Assembly: GCF_003049085.1 (NCBI RefSeq)
Contig: NZ_PIQX01000003.1
Location: forward strand, 186,001 to 250,000
From: Campylobacter concisus
GTDB lineage: Bacteria; Campylobacterota; Campylobacteria; Campylobacterales; Campylobacteraceae
Length of the DNA: 64,000 bases
Reading direction: 5' to 3'
The position numbers were made by a program, and so were the translations under genes. Shown here piece after piece: positions 2,589 through 11,350 of the stretch. The notes below the pieces were generated by a model. The model did no database searches, was not told where the DNA came from, and worked only from the letters and a program-made list of their open reading frames with translations. Numbering within the stretch: the stretch's first letter is position 1; each line of letters begins with the position of its first letter.

Positions 2589-2894
2589 TTATTTCGTTGG
2601 CACATTCTTTAAAATACTTTTGACATTCCTATCTGTATAAACTTCATCTCTTTTACTTATGTCGAGAAAAAGTACTATAAGCTCTTCGTCTTGTATAAAA
2701 CATATTAAACGATAGTTTTTTACTCTATATCTCCATAATCCACTCAAATTCTCAGTTAATCCTTTTCCACTACTGCGAGGATCATCACTTTCCTCGAGCC
2801 GATCAAGAAACTTTTGAATTGGTTTTTTTATTGAGCCGTCAAGTTCATTAAACTTCTCTTTGGCATAATCGCTAAATCGTATCTTATAAGCCAT
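2589..2894 (-). CDS. RelE/ParE-superfamily toxin
   Basis: A 101-residue protein of the usual RelE size. It contains a helical N-terminus (YAKEKFNELDGSIKKPIQKFL), then the family signature GLWRYRVKNYRLICF (about residues 67-81) and a C-terminal DISKRDEVY strand. RelE/StbE toxins are ribosome-dependent mRNA interferases; the basic residues around W-RYRV-NYR-I correspond to the RNA-contact strand. Its ATG lies inside the 3' end of the antitoxin gene, an 11-base overlap that is standard for type II toxin-antitoxin operons. It is the last gene of a leftward run starting near 4644. A DNA gyrase-directed ParE activity cannot be excluded. Confidence 0.85.
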   Translation of the reverse strand: MAYKIRFSDYAKEKFNELDGSIKKPIQKFLDRLEESDDPRSSGKGLTENLSGLWRYRVKNYRLICFIQDEELIVLFLDISKRDEVYTDRNVKSILKNVPTK

Positions 2895-3135
2895 TTTCTT
2901 TCTTTATATCAGCCCATGAGGTTGATTTGCTTCCGCTAGCCAAATATTCAGAATAAAGCTTTGCTCCAAGCTTTGCATCTTCAATATCTTGTAAGGCTTC
3001 GCTGTCGATCTTATCTTTCGATGTGTTGATATACTTTATCGTATATGTTGGATTGCTGGCTTTGGCGACAGCGTTTTTTATAGCTTGGATAATTTGTTGA
3101 TTTAAATTTTCGCCTGTAATAGTTATTGTTTTCAT
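2884..3135 (-). CDS. RelB-like antitoxin
   Basis: An 83-residue acidic protein directly upstream of, and overlapping, the RelE-type toxin. The N-terminal half (MKTITITGENLNQQIIQAIKN) looks like a short beta strand plus helix suited to DNA binding or dimerisation. The C-terminal half ends in GSKSTSWADIKKENGL, similar to the toxin-wrapping tail of RelB-family antitoxins that carry S-W-(A/E)-D-I-K. The ATG is preceded by CGGAG. It would neutralise the toxin and repress the operon, and on this element it probably serves maintenance. Confidence 0.8.
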   Translation of the reverse strand: MKTITITGENLNQQIIQAIKNAVAKASNPTYTIKYINTSKDKIDSEALQDIEDAKLGAKLYSEYLASGSKSTSWADIKKENGL

Positions 3136-3150
3136 GTGTCTTGCTCCGTT

Positions 3151-3432
3151 TTATCTATTCTTATCCATTATTTTTTCGATATCTATATCTGCGCCTTTAT
3201 CTTCTGTTTCGCAATAACTAGCTTCAACTGCATAATTTTTTCCAAGAGTCCTAACCAAATCTGGTTCGTTTCCTATATATCCTTGACTTCTTAATTGCTT
3301 ATATTTTTTTATGATTTCTGCACAACTTTCTTTTTGCTCTTTTTTTTGCACCTTTGGCAGTTGAAACTCTGCACATCCACTAAAAAACAACCCAGCTATT
3401 GCTGTAATTATCAAAACCTTATTTACTTTCAT
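3151..3432 (-). CDS. Small lipoprotein of the mobile element
   Basis: A 93-residue protein with a lipoprotein signal peptide: basic start MKVNK, hydrophobic core and lipobox LFFSGC, giving lipidation at C20. The mature part is charged and has two further cysteines (C37, C74). No family is recognised. It sits 15 bases upstream of the antitoxin gene, at the end of a run of small unknown genes. Small lipoproteins in conjugation loci often mediate entry exclusion (TrbK in RP4) or form part of the outer-membrane pore (VirB7). Either is possible, but nothing in the sequence decides it. Confidence 0.65.
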   Translation of the reverse strand: MKVNKVLIITAIAGLFFSGCAEFQLPKVQKKEQKESCAEIIKKYKQLRSQGYIGNEPDLVRTLGKNYAVEASYCETEDKGADIDIEKIMDKNR

Positions 3433-3515
3433 TGTAAATCCTTTTTTAAGAAAAATTATAACATATTGTATAAAATTTTACGTTATAAGGCTATTTGGTT
3501 TCTCGACCAGCTTTA

Positions 3516-3755
3516 TCATACTCTGGCTCTTCTTTGCTCTTCTTCGTCGATCTGACACACTACTTCGTCGTCGTGCCATATCATGCACCCAAGGGAGTCT
3601 AAGTACTCAACCATCAACCTAACACTGCTTTTTAAAAATGAGAGCTCTCTATCACTTATATTTGCAAGCTCTCTTGACTCTAGTGGGAGCGGAGCTTTAA
3701 TTAACTCATTCATTATTTCATTTGCTCTCTCAAATTTATTATAATCTCTATTCAT
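3516..3755 (-). CDS. Hypothetical small protein of the mobile element
   Basis: A 79-residue soluble, acidic protein with no signal peptide and no recognised family. The sequence is mostly helical (FERANEIMNELIKAPLPL, then SFLKSSVRLMVEYLDSLG) and ends in a charged tail EEEQRRARV. The ATG is preceded by AAAAGGAG, a strong ribosome binding site. It lies 11 bases downstream of the 125-residue gene, so it is probably translated from the same leftward mRNA. Its size and composition would suit a small regulator or an anti-host factor, but that is a guess. Confidence 0.6.
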   Translation of the reverse strand: MNRDYNKFERANEIMNELIKAPLPLESRELANISDRELSFLKSSVRLMVEYLDSLGCMIWHDDEVVCQIDEEEQRRARV

Positions 3756-3766
3756 GTTTGCTCCTT

Positions 3767-4144
3767 TTATGGCAATTTAAAACCTATTGCATAAATCGGA
3801 TACACATTCTCTATAAACCCACTTTTAGCCAAAGTTTCTCTTATTTCCTTAAAAGTATGGCGACGATCATCATATTTGATCCAGCCACCTTCAATATCTT
3901 TTTTCTCAAAATACCAATACACTTCATCTATATTAATATAGCTTTCTTCGACATGCCCCTGTTTAAGTGCCATGCTATTATCAAATTTATCTGCTGGCTC
4001 GGCTGGTTCTATAACATAGTAGTATTCATTGTCGCTAGCTGCTTTATAAAAATCTACTACTCTATAGATAGACTCGAATTTATCAAGTGGTCTATCCATG
4101 TGCTTTTTTAGGACTATTCTGTCATTTGATTTAAATTTTTGCAT
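3767..4144 (-). CDS. Hypothetical protein of the mobile element
   Basis: A 125-residue protein without signal peptide or membrane segment, rich in Tyr, Asp, Glu and Lys. The N-terminus (FKSNDRIVLKKHMDRPLDKFESIYRVVDFY) suggests a small beta-barrel fold. The middle has an aromatic cluster (EVYWYFEKKDIEGGWIKYDD). I do not recognise the family. AAGGAG lies just upstream of the ATG. Neighbours on both sides are 10-11 bases away on the same strand, which indicates one operon with 3516-4644. Confidence 0.6.
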   Translation of the reverse strand: MQKFKSNDRIVLKKHMDRPLDKFESIYRVVDFYKAASDNEYYYVIEPAEPADKFDNSMALKQGHVEESYINIDEVYWYFEKKDIEGGWIKYDDRRHTFKEIRETLAKSGFIENVYPIYAIGFKLP

Positions 4145-4154
4145 TTTAGACTCC

Positions 4155-4394
4155 TTAATTGTTTAGGTTTGCTAGTAAATTTGACTTTTCGTCTTCTATG
4201 CTCTTAATTACATCTTCTTTATTTGTAATTTCGCAACCAAACTCGTCTGCTAGCTCAATTATGTACTTTTGAAGCCTAGCACATTCGGCTATGACTTCTT
4301 CGCTGTCGTCATCCAAATCCCCTAACCATTTGCATTCTTTTAACGCCTTTAGCGTCATTTCATGCCTGCAGTAGCTCATAAATATCTCTCTCAT
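4155..4394 (-). CDS. Hypothetical small protein of the mobile element
   Basis: A 79-residue acidic protein, probably all-helical, with two cysteines near the N-terminus (C9, C21) and one in an AECARLQKYI helix. It has no signal peptide and no recognised family. The start is chosen because AAGGAGTAGAAG precedes the ATG; a second Met lies six residues in. It is separated by 10 bases from each flanking gene. Confidence 0.55.
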   Translation of the reverse strand: MREIFMSYCRHEMTLKALKECKWLGDLDDDSEEVIAECARLQKYIIELADEFGCEITNKEDVIKSIEDEKSNLLANLNN

Positions 4395-4404
4395 CTTCTA
4401 CTCC

Positions 4405-4644
4405 TTATCTATTTTCTCTTATATTTTGCTCTATAACATCTTTTGTGGCTCTTAGTGACTCACAAAATGATGTAAACTCGGTCTTTTCGCCTTTATTATA
4501 GGTAACATAAACTACGTTAGTTGTGTTCGTGTCGTTTAACATGGCTTCGTATACCACACCATTTCTTTGCATCGATATATGCTTTTCATCGCCATTTATC
4601 TTTCCGTATTGACTAAGTAGGTTAATTATGCTGTTTGCTTTCAT
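4405..4644 (-). CDS. Hypothetical small protein, first gene of a leftward operon
   Basis: A 79-residue protein predicted to be alpha/beta: an N-terminal helix (SIINLLSQYGKI), strands (HISMQRNGVVYEAML, NVVYVTYNKG) and a C-terminal helix (SLRATKDVIEQNIRE). It is not recognised. The ATG at 4644 is preceded by AAAGGA. As the most upstream gene of the run ending with the toxin at 2589, its promoter should lie in the AT-rich stretch at about 4650-4750. Confidence 0.55.
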   Translation of the reverse strand: MKANSIINLLSQYGKINGDEKHISMQRNGVVYEAMLNDTNTTNVVYVTYNKGEKTEFTSFCESLRATKDVIEQNIRENR

Positions 4645-4848: not shown

Positions 4849-4969
4849 CATCGCTTTTAGCGATGCTACTATATTGCGGGGCGTTGCGGGGTATCCCCGC
4901 TTAATACCATAAAGAGCCGAGACCTAGGCTCGGCTCTGGCGTTCCAGCACTCTAGTGCAGGTCGCCTGC
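4849..4969. other. GC-rich cluster of four consecutive stem-loops
   Basis: A GC-rich island inside AT-rich DNA, with four perfect or near-perfect inverted repeats in 120 bp. They are CATCGCT-TTT-AGCGATG (4849-4865), GCGGGG-TAT-CCCCGC (4886-4900), AGAGCCGAG-(7)-CTCGGCTCT (4913-4937), and GGCG...GCACT-CT-AGTGC...CGCC (4938-4966). The last can refold as GCAGG-TCG-CCTGC (4957-4969). Part of a second GCGGGG (4876-4881) gives hairpin 2 an alternative partner. No coding potential is seen. A single-strand or replication origin, a structured RNA, or a protein-bound regulatory array would all fit. It lies immediately left of the tandem repeats. Confidence 0.6.
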
Positions 4970-4973
4970 CATA

Positions 4974-5666
4974 AATTTCGGACAATTTGTAAAAATAAAT
5001 TTACTCAACAATGCGTCAAACTCCCACACAAAGGGGATAAACATCACTTTATCAATACTTATTTAAAGCTTAAAGTCTAAAAACCATAGCTTTATCCTGA
5101 CTAGCCAAATCCTGAACTATTGACGAGAAAATGTAAAATTTCTTACTATTTAAAAGCCTTACAAACGCCGATACAATGGGGCTAAACCTAACTTCATCAA
5201 TACTTACTTAAAGCTTAAAGTCTAAAAAGCAGATGGCTTGCATTCGATTACGGCTCATAAAATTTCGGACAATTTGTAAAAATAAATTTACTCAACAATG
5301 CGTCAAACTCCCACACAAAGGGGATAAACATCACTTTATCAATACTTATTTAAAGCTTAAAGTCTAAAAACCATAGCTTTATCCTGACTAGCCAAATCCT
5401 GAACTATTGACGAGAAAATGTAAAATTTCTTACTATTTAAAAGCCTTACAAACGCCGATACAATGGGGCTAAACCTAACTTCATCAATACTTACTTAAAG
5501 CTTAAAGTCTAAAAAGCAGATGGCTTGCATTCGATTACGGCTCATAAAATTTCGGACAATTTGTAAAAATAAATTTACTCAACAATGCGTCAAACTCCCA
5601 CACAAAGGGGATAAACATCACTTTATCAATACTTATTTAAAGCTTAAAGTCTAAAAGCAGATGGCT
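4974..5666. repeat. 287-bp tandem repeat, 2.4 copies
   Basis: Copy 1 (4974-5260) and copy 2 (5261-5547) read as identical. Copy 3 (5548-5666) is partial. Each full unit contains two related ~53-bp cores sharing CTTAAAGCTTAAAG-type sequence: type A at 5031, 5318 and 5605, and type B at 5176 and 5463, spaced alternately 145 and 142 bp. In copy 3 an A core is joined directly to B-type flanking sequence (GCAGATGGCT), which is what recombination between A and B cores would give. Each unit starts with GGACAATTTGTAAAA, the element-wide motif. The block ends six bases before the primase stop codon. It is not a CRISPR array, because the DNA between cores is also repeated. Confidence 0.85.
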
Positions 5667-5671
5667 GTTTT

Positions 5672-6910
5672 TTATCGTATCTTAGATGATCTTTCGTAGT
5701 CTTTTTCAATTTTTGCATTTATCAAGTTAAATCGCTTATAGCTTTCTCTCATTCCCTGCAATGTCTTGATCTTTGGTTCTATTTCTCTAAATTTTTCAAT
5801 ATTAAGGGCGTATAGGTCTTTTATTCTACTTTTCTTAGCATCTGGCTCGAGAAAGTCGTATTTCTTTGACAAATACTCAACTTGCCGAGAAAACTCCTTT
5901 AAAGGCTTTGTTATGCTGTCGAGATTAATTTTATTACTACTTATACCTAATGCTGTGCCTGCTACCAAATCATCATTAAAGTCCTTTAGGATTGGTTTGG
6001 CTGATCTCGCATTTGGTACTATTTCTAGTATCGCTTTTGTAAATTCTTTGCCACGTTCGTCATTATCAAATCCTAGTACAACTCCTGCATTTGGTGCCAG
6101 CTTTGTCAATGCTTTTATGACTTCCTTTTGCGTTGCCGATATTTGACCATTTGTTGAGCATAGGAGTGTTTCTTTTAAATTTACGTCTTTTATTTCACAA
6201 TATGATAATGTATCTATCATGCTCTCACAGATTACAATATTTTTAAAATCCTTTGGATTCTTGTGTGCTTCGTCTGCCTTGAGTATTTCAAGCCCCTTTA
6301 TTCCATTGCAGAGCTGTTTTATTGGCTTAGCGTATGCCTTTCCTTGCTGATCCTGCGTTAAAGGCTTTGATAAATAGCTTATATACCCTGTCTGTTTTAG
6401 AAATTCTCTTTTGCCACTGCTTAGTTCCAATACACTTAATGTATATGTTGGCACTATTGCATTCTTAAATTTTTCATCCTGCTTGAGGCTACTAAATTTT
6501 ATCAGGATATCACTTTTAATTTTTCTTTTGCTAGTCAAAAATGAGTTTTCATCTATCTTATTTAATTTTTTAAATTTTTCTACTATAATACTATCATTTT
6601 CTTTTTGTTTTATTATTTCTTTAGTATTGATTTTTAACGTCTTTACATCGTTTATTATATTTTCATCTATTAAATCTTTTATTGAAACGCCACGATTTTT
6701 GGCGAAATTATAAATATTTCCTCTATCATTATCATCGCTTGGGTTAAAGTATAAATAGTGTCCGTTGCTTTTTCTCGTTATGATAATTGTATCGGAGTTG
6801 TTGTTTGTGAGTGTCTTGTAATTTTGGCTACTTTTCTCTCGTTTTTCAAAGTAGCCATTATTCTTTAAAATTTCATCTAGTGGGAGTTCGACTAAATTTT
6901 CTTTGTTCAT
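5672..6910 (-). CDS. TOPRIM-domain primase-like protein (DUF3991/TOPRIM family)
   Basis: A 412-residue protein related to plasmid and ICE primases. Residues ~1-85 form the DUF3991-like N-terminal domain (LDEILKNNGYFEKRE..., HYLYFNPSDDNDRGNIYNFAKNRG), which resembles a CHC2 primase domain without zinc ligands. The TOPRIM core lies at about 220-310: the catalytic Glu in IVICESMIDT (E229), and the metal-binding Asp pair in GVVLGFDNDERG (D282, D284). The C-terminal ~100 residues are helical. Such proteins prime synthesis on transferred single-stranded DNA. Its ATG overlaps the trbM stop codon by four bases (ATGA), so it belongs to the leftward operon that starts at 9467. Confidence 0.8.
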   Translation of the reverse strand: MNKENLVELPLDEILKNNGYFEKREKSSQNYKTLTNNNSDTIIITRKSNGHYLYFNPSDDNDRGNIYNFAKNRGVSIKDLIDENIINDVKTLKINTKEIIKQKENDSIIVEKFKKLNKIDENSFLTSKRKIKSDILIKFSSLKQDEKFKNAIVPTYTLSVLELSSGKREFLKQTGYISYLSKPLTQDQQGKAYAKPIKQLCNGIKGLEILKADEAHKNPKDFKNIVICESMIDTLSYCEIKDVNLKETLLCSTNGQISATQKEVIKALTKLAPNAGVVLGFDNDERGKEFTKAILEIVPNARSAKPILKDFNDDLVAGTALGISSNKINLDSITKPLKEFSRQVEYLSKKYDFLEPDAKKSRIKDLYALNIEKFREIEPKIKTLQGMRESYKRFNLINAKIEKDYERSSKIR

Positions 6911-10195: not shown

Positions 10196-11350
10196 ATGAA
10201 AAATTTAGAAAAAAATAGAAATATATATATTAAGCATAATCGTTTTTATATTGACTATCAAAAGGATGGCGTAAGAATTCGCCGTGCCACTGGACTGAAA
10301 AAATCCCCTTTAGCATTTGATTTTATTCGAAAAAACTATAATTTATTTCTTGGCTCTGAAGAGGATATTGAACTTGCTAAGAGCAAATATTATGAGCTCG
10401 AGGATATGCAAACTGATCGCATAATCAGAAAAGGGGAGCAAAAGCTGGAGCCTATTAAAAATACTAGTGAGTTTAGCTTTGAGGGGATTATTTATAGATT
10501 GCTTAATGAAAAATCCTTTTTAAAGGATAAAACAATCAGGTTTTATAATGTTGCTAGTCAGGCTGTTATCGATTTTCTGCATTCAAAAAACATCTTTTAC
10601 CTGTCCGATTTTGAAAGGCAGGATAGTATTGATTTTGTAAAATTTTGTAAAAACAAGGGCTTAAAAGATAGCTCAATTAATGGGTATTGCTCTTTTTTTA
10701 AAATGGTTTTTCGTTATGCTATTGCCAATGATATAATCTCAAAAAATCCATTCTATATACCTAGGTTCAAACAAGAATTACATAATGCCGACAATGGTGA
10801 TTTTACCCCTTTTAATTTAAGTGAGATTTTGCAACTTATAAAACATGCCGAGGGCGAGCTACGCTTATTTTTAATAGTTGCATTCTTTACTGGGGCTAGG
10901 ACTGGCGAGATTTTGGCTTTGACTTTTAATGACTTGGATTTTCAAAATAAGGAGATACGTATTAATAAAACTCTATCGGAGCTAGGTGTTTTGGATTCTC
11001 CTAAAACTAAATCCAGCAATCGTACAATCGATATGCTTGATATTGTTTATAATGAACTGATAAAACTCGATTATACCGATATTAATCAAAATATTTTTTC
11101 TCTTTCACGAGCAGTTATCAGATTAAAATTTAATGATTTGCAGAGATCCCTTGGCTTTAAAATACATAAGCTTTATGATACTAGACACTCATTCGCTTCT
11201 GTAATGTTAAGTCGTGGCGAGGAGCCGATGTGGGTTGGTTGTAAAATGATGGGTCATAAAAATTTAAATGAGACCTATCGCTCTTATGCTAAATATCTAC
11301 CAAAAGATACTAGGCAAAGAGCAACTTTTTTAAAGAATATAGCAATTTAA
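10196..11350 (+). CDS. int: Tyrosine recombinase / integrase of the mobile element
   Basis: A 384-residue phage-type integrase that would insert and excise the element. The N-terminal ~75 residues form an arm-type DNA-binding region (FYIDYQKDGVRIRRATGLKKS). A core-binding SAM-like domain covers ~90-190, and the catalytic domain ~205-375. Visible catalytic residues are R235 in FTGARTGEIL, the Lys region PKTKSSNR (270-276), R330 in LYDTRHSFAS, H354 in MMGHKNL, and the nucleophile, probably Y364, in YRSYAKY. All boxes appear intact, so the enzyme should be active. It is the last element gene before chromosomal DNA, so the attachment site should lie just to its right. Confidence 0.9.
   Translation: MKNLEKNRNIYIKHNRFYIDYQKDGVRIRRATGLKKSPLAFDFIRKNYNLFLGSEEDIELAKSKYYELEDMQTDRIIRKGEQKLEPIKNTSEFSFEGIIYRLLNEKSFLKDKTIRFYNVASQAVIDFLHSKNIFYLSDFERQDSIDFVKFCKNKGLKDSSINGYCSFFKMVFRYAIANDIISKNPFYIPRFKQELHNADNGDFTPFNLSEILQLIKHAEGELRLFLIVAFFTGARTGEILALTFNDLDFQNKEIRINKTLSELGVLDSPKTKSSNRTIDMLDIVYNELIKLDYTDINQNIFSLSRAVIRLKFNDLQRSLGFKIHKLYDTRHSFASVMLSRGEEPMWVGCKMMGHKNLNETYRSYAKYLPKDTRQRATFLKNIAI

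Follow-up and report, generated by a model that had tools for sequence, protein, structure and literature searches.

At G4-type primase origins, arrays of short hairpins form on a single strand and the primer is made there. Frpo, the single-stranded promoter/primer site of the F plasmid, is a hairpin on the transferred strand, placed upstream of genes of the leading region for which the T-strand is read (PMC11541004, PMC7690428), while the ssi sites of R6K, R100, ColE1, ColE2, and RSF1010 are short single-strand hairpin arrays at which primase or RNA polymerase makes the primer (PMC7690428). A leading region is recognised by its T-strand genes for anti-restriction proteins, SSB, and toxin-antitoxin pairs (PMC11541004).

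The hairpin array described here sits inside a conjugative element integrated in a Campylobacter-type genome, in a stretch of 64,000 nucleotides of Campylobacter concisus (the window, to which all positions refer unless another record is named). Like the ssi sites and the G4-type origins, it consists of short hairpins on a single strand, and like Frpo it folds stably on the transferred strand and lies upstream of genes in the leading region that have the T-strand as template. Unlike Frpo, which holds its -35/-10 elements in a long stem, the array combines a fixed core with several short, GC-rich stem-loops, and unlike the ssi and G4-type sites it has no sequence match in the R6K, R100, ColE1, ColE2, and RSF1010 plasmids or in phages and is adjoined by a toprim gene in several Campylobacter elements. 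No -35/-10 hexamers were seen in the stems of the array, as consensus matches fell solely outside it. Sequence similarity to Frpo or ssi was not found with blastn against 72,556 plasmids (PLSDB), where the matches listed bore only Campylobacter and alphaproteobacterial names and included no enterobacterial plasmids. Since neither a sequence relation in this plasmid search nor the -35/-10 arrangement was found, the array is proposed to work like Frpo and ssi, not to belong to them. Judged from sequence comparisons, it is an apparently undescribed signal of conserved structure, common to conjugative plasmids of two phyla, and most likely a site at which the newly arrived single strand would be copied or read; the core string was not found in the papers searched.

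The array occupies positions 4849–4969, where a sequence check located all four hairpins. An earlier note, made from the letters alone, had described four inverted repeats here with an alternative fold for the last, and both were confirmed at the positions given in it. Hairpin 1 (CATCGCT-TTT-AGCGATG, 4849–4865, + strand, 7 bp) gives way to other stems in the same place in relatives. The core, GCGGGGCGTTGCGGGGTATCCCCGC (4876–4900, + strand), is nearly invariant across phyla, and its 3′ part forms hairpin A (GCGGGG/CCCCGC, 4886–4900, + strand, 6 bp). Hairpin B (AGAGCCGAGACCTAGGCTCGGCTCT, 4913–4937, + strand) has 9 bp plus an inner pair, with a conserved AGAC...GGCT and an A·G mismatch, while the GC-rich hairpin C (GGCG...CGCC, 4938–4966, + strand) encloses GCACT/AGTGC (4947–4958) and has the alternative fold GCAGG/CCTGC (4957–4969, + strand). 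As single-stranded DNA, the segment 4840–4980 folds at -33.4 kcal/mol, compared with -18.1 ± 2.8 in shuffled sequences (z = -5.5, none of 200 as stable); folded as RNA, the array reaches z = -4.7 on the + strand and -4.6 on the - strand. The mismatch of hairpin B is A·G on the + strand and would be C·T on the opposite one, and folding was slightly better on + than on - in all four groups compared, so the + strand is probably the folded one. The frequency of G·U pairs, used as a test of RNA against DNA, gave no decisive difference.

The array is kept in relatives within the genus, and among the relatives compared the core GGGGCGTTGCGGGGTNNCCCC stays constant while the stems differ. In 31 distinct copies of the alphaproteobacterial type, double-sided changes occur in 7 of the 9 pairs of hairpin B, the covariation score of this hairpin is reached by none of 500 shuffles, and it peaks in the true register (0.141, vs. 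0.019–0.067 when slid). All nine Campylobacterota members carry an AGAC...GGCT hairpin whose stem has 4 bp or more, mostly with different stem sequences: AGAGCCG in the window, AAAATTA in pVir, GCAT in G001, AAGCTAA in G118, AAAACAA in G087, and AAAACA in G175. A covariance model trained solely on the 31 alphaproteobacterial copies found the window site (match 4878–4945) with E = 2.6e−4, a rough value given the short calibration, and a search of 360 kb of Campylobacterota DNA with this model gave 14 matches up to E = 1, every one of them a core site. The homologous elements retain the hairpins and their substitutions preserve pairing, so the claim of the earlier note withstood the refuting check that it had set. 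We conclude firmly that the array is a conserved element under structural constraint; double-stranded palindromes under protein binding would show compensatory changes too.

The element around the hairpins encodes, according to ORF lists read partly by eye, a Rep_3-like initiator, ParA, a topoisomerase, SSB, VirB/VirD4 genes, a relaxase, and an integrase at 10196. It has an oriT inverted repeat, ACACTA...TAGTGT with CCGATTATATCGG inside (653–686, + strand), which also precedes the nick in G017 and G013. Past it follows an RP4-type nick site, TTATCCTG^CC (709–718, + strand), assigned by consensus and position, with the cut expected after 716, and then the gene for a MobA/VirD2-type, MobP1-like relaxase (798–2417, + strand; Pfam PF03432, E = 2.9e−8; NCBIfam MobP1, E = 2.7e−7, below the cut-off of that model). 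As the nick consensus stands past the inverted repeat and upstream of the relaxase gene, the + strand is the T-strand, on which, moving right, the relaxase gene comes first and the hairpins follow 4.2 kb behind the nick. The array itself was rejected as an oriT: the nick consensus is 4.2 kb away, and there is none within 4849–4969.

The arrangement recurs in Campylobacter elements, in pVir, and in alphaproteobacterial plasmids and islands. Order and sense are the same as in the window in G017, G013, G037, G015, G026, G039, G087, and G001. In pVir, the nick (33548) and the cores (25431 and 7707) all lie on the - strand, both sites again having this order and sense, and in the alphaproteobacterial plasmids pMC4 and pAtK224b a nick candidate, TATCTTGC, stands beside a DUF3363 relaxase gene with the core in the same sense. 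With near-identical relatives entered once, the sense of the core on the T-strand was identical in eight out of eight independent sites with an identifiable nick (chance 2^-8 = 0.004); Magnetospira, Caulobacter S6, Tardibacter, and G175 were left out of this count because no nick was found in them. Distances from nick to site reach 14.5 and 23.6 kb in pMC4 and pAtK224b, the alphaproteobacterial pair, and in pVir the second site is 25.8 kb away, which is late for an early signal and counts against a leading-region reading.

Between the relaxase gene and the array lies a leading-region operon that reads towards oriT (2589–4644, - strand), with the T-strand as its template. It encodes four small unknown proteins and, at its far end (2589–3432), a RelE-type toxin together with two proteins that score below curated cut-offs, a RelB-like antitoxin and a lipoprotein of TrbK-like (entry exclusion) type. 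Its start at 4644 bears out the statement of the earlier note that the nearest gene on the left begins about 200 bp away on the - strand. Directly after the hairpins come 2.4 copies of a 287-bp tandem repeat (4973–5666, + strand); in relatives this position holds repeats of other lengths (G037 has units of about 184 bp), and it is a frequent end point of draft contigs. The next gene, facing the hairpins, codes for a primase-like Toprim/DUF3991 protein (5672–6910, - strand; Pfam Toprim_2, E = 6.1e−14) with a weak match to the DNA primase structure 5vaz (E = 0.065), and it ends about 700 bp to the right of the hairpins. A toprim gene adjoins the core in several Campylobacter relatives and lies inside some alphaproteobacterial leading operons. 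Elsewhere in the same element, 22 kb away and upstream of a different leftward gene, the AT-rich stretch and hairpin 1 recur at 73% identity, but the core does not (L033:13400–13560; G000:C3:168388–168557).

In both the window and pVir, the sites are flanked by genes reading back towards oriT, and every Campylobacter site whose surroundings were read is upstream of such genes. The site is upstream of leading-region genes with the T-strand as template in the window, pVir, pMC4, and pAtK224b. Several well-placed alphaproteobacterial copies head operons for ArdC, DUF932, ParB, toprim, and DUF2493, and several other alphaproteobacterial sites are without the operon arrangement, in a survey of loci that was based on ORFs and is noisy. 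The genes of these operons belong in part to the known leading-region classes (PMC11541004). Placed about 200 bp upstream of the operon 4644–2589, the array could also be a double-stranded protein-binding site or a 5′-leader control site for this operon; a sigma-70-like promoter on the - strand (5019–4992, a consensus match only) would place it in the leader, and the AT-rich stretch with hairpin 1 recurs before another leftward gene of the element. However, the geometry of the mismatch favours the + strand over a - strand mRNA, and sequence recognition is unlikely outside the core because the stems change freely, and we regard control of this kind as very improbable.

The fixed sense on the entering single strand, the kept fold, and the position upstream of T-strand-templated genes together point to a single-strand initiation signal. 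To the reading of the array as a leading-region single-strand initiation site, for priming and/or early transcription, as has been proposed for Frpo (PMC7690428), and similar to Frpo and ssi in its working, we give an even chance. In such a scheme, the + strand would be cut at about 716 and enter the recipient with its 5′ end first, delivering the relaxase gene and then the hairpin site, and the entering strand would fold into the array. The core (GGGGCGTT plus hairpin A) and the A·G-mismatch hairpin B would then be recognised by a polymerase, either RNA polymerase or DnaG primase, as a widespread enzyme of the host, or the primase-like toprim protein of the element, and the RNA presumably made there would start complementary-strand synthesis and/or early transcription of the operon 4644–2589. 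The primase-like protein is a candidate because a toprim gene is near the site in several Campylobacter elements and some alphaproteobacterial operons, and a host enzyme is favoured by the spread of the motif across phyla. Among the options that the earlier note had offered, a site of initiation or promotion on the T-strand is the one favoured by position and polarity behind the nick; a strict rolling-circle single-strand origin is not indicated, since a protein farther left in the element looks, by eye, like a theta-type Rep_3 initiator, and a structured RNA is retained because the structure recurs in other phyla as a dispersed repeat.

An exact scan found the core in 12 of 397 Campylobacterota genomes, the reversed control pattern giving 0. 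Elsewhere it was present in at least 120 stretches of other genomes, among the matches listed mainly from Treponema, Fibrobacter and relatives, and Alphaproteobacteria, and similarity searches added plasmids, pVir of C. jejuni among them, and 30 plasmid records whose names were all alphaproteobacterial among the matches listed. The core also occurs in 16 viral-contig stretches (IMG/VR); a phage origin was rejected because phage records gave no match, although these stretches carry it. Several individual copies are worth recording. In one element of G087, two near-identical copies of about 1 kb with the core lie 25.5 kb apart (L058 and L061; G087:C1:1584723 and 1559187), which suggests a recent duplication or gene conversion. 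Locus L265 (NZ_CP018222.1:55673 and 72232) has a variant core in which hairpin A is extended to GCGGGGGGACGCGTCCCCCCGC and the 5′ GGGGCGTT is retained, and the 6.5-kb plasmid NZ_CP155764.1 (L251), with no recognised transfer genes, carries a copy that is 93% identical to an alphaproteobacterial query and adjoins one gene for a hypothetical protein and another for an AAA ATPase.

The dispersed chromosomal copies in Treponema and Fibrobacter do not fit the reading as a single-strand initiation site, and because of them we rate no one mechanism above roughly even odds. Between 10 and 77 core copies (with at most two mismatches) are present in each of six genomes of Treponema, Fibrobacter, Chitinispirillales, and a termite-gut spirochaete (G430–G432, G435, G437, G438; L212–L250), many of them with the complete hairpin architecture, and 33 of 59 Treponema genomes have at least one copy. 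These dispersed copies may represent a structured RNA or a mobile repeat, or the signal may have been put to a second use; nothing relevant on palindromic repeats of spirochaetes or fibrobacters, nor on the leading region of pVir, was found in the literature.

A structured RNA, with the + strand transcribed as a small RNA or a 3′-UTR element in the chromosomes with dispersed copies as well as in the conjugative elements, appears somewhat unlikely. The dispersed copies fold on the same strand as the gene upstream and mostly lie just 3′ of it (53 of 69, by rough ORF calls), and variants of hairpin B resemble RNA internal loops with tandem G·A. One Treponema copy (L104:6234–6333) shares the first-hairpin layout of the Rfam RT-12 RNA (RF03016), GGCGnnGC-stem-GCUrGAnGG, in a weak full-length match of 20.3 bits against a cut-off of 44.2, whereas neither the window nor the alphaproteobacterial copy examined matched RT-12, and a known Rfam family was rejected as nothing exceeded the gathering cut-off. 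In the window and pVir, moreover, the genes to either side run opposite to the sense of the core, and an RNA leaves the fixed sense relative to the nick without a reason other than a fixed gene order. A T-run after the last hairpin is present in 0 of 38 alphaproteobacterial copies, which also led us to reject a transcription terminator for these copies; for the window array a terminator is unlikely, as it follows no gene in the + sense.

The high numbers of intergenic copies in single spirochaete and fibrobacter genomes, and the proportion of Treponema carriers, are also what a small mobile or selfish palindromic repeat (REP- or MITE-like) inserted beside leading regions would produce, and the array resembles REP/BIME repeats in this respect. 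Unlike these, however, it is longer, has several hairpins, and is found in one or few copies in plasmids. A REP-type Y1 transposase was found in just three of the eight multi-copy genomes tested, an inconsistent presence on which a REP/RAYT element was rejected, and no target duplications were seen by eye in 39 copies. The sense relative to the nick, fixed across phyla, suggests a function in plasmids, and an origin as a mobile repeat is improbable in our assessment.

For single-strand initiation, the furthest-reaching version, which we put forward tentatively as a possibility, is that a new signal composed of a 23-nt core and an A·G-mismatch hairpin may be recognised on single strands by a universal host enzyme and may start the copying or reading of arriving elements in Campylobacterota and Alphaproteobacteria, and that it may also have multiplied as a dispersed repeat on the chromosomes of spirochaetes and fibrobacters. 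Outside the enterobacteria, the first copying and reading of incoming conjugative DNA is a largely open question. The published search for leading-region single-strand promoters relied on five known Frpo/ssi sequences and an E. coli-type -35/-10 consensus (PMC11541004), and a signal of the present kind would be missed by a search limited to these. The dispersed chromosomal copies raise a separate question. With a short motif suited to pattern and covariance-model searches, the first copying or reading of arriving DNA becomes a testable matter in Campylobacter and Alphaproteobacteria.
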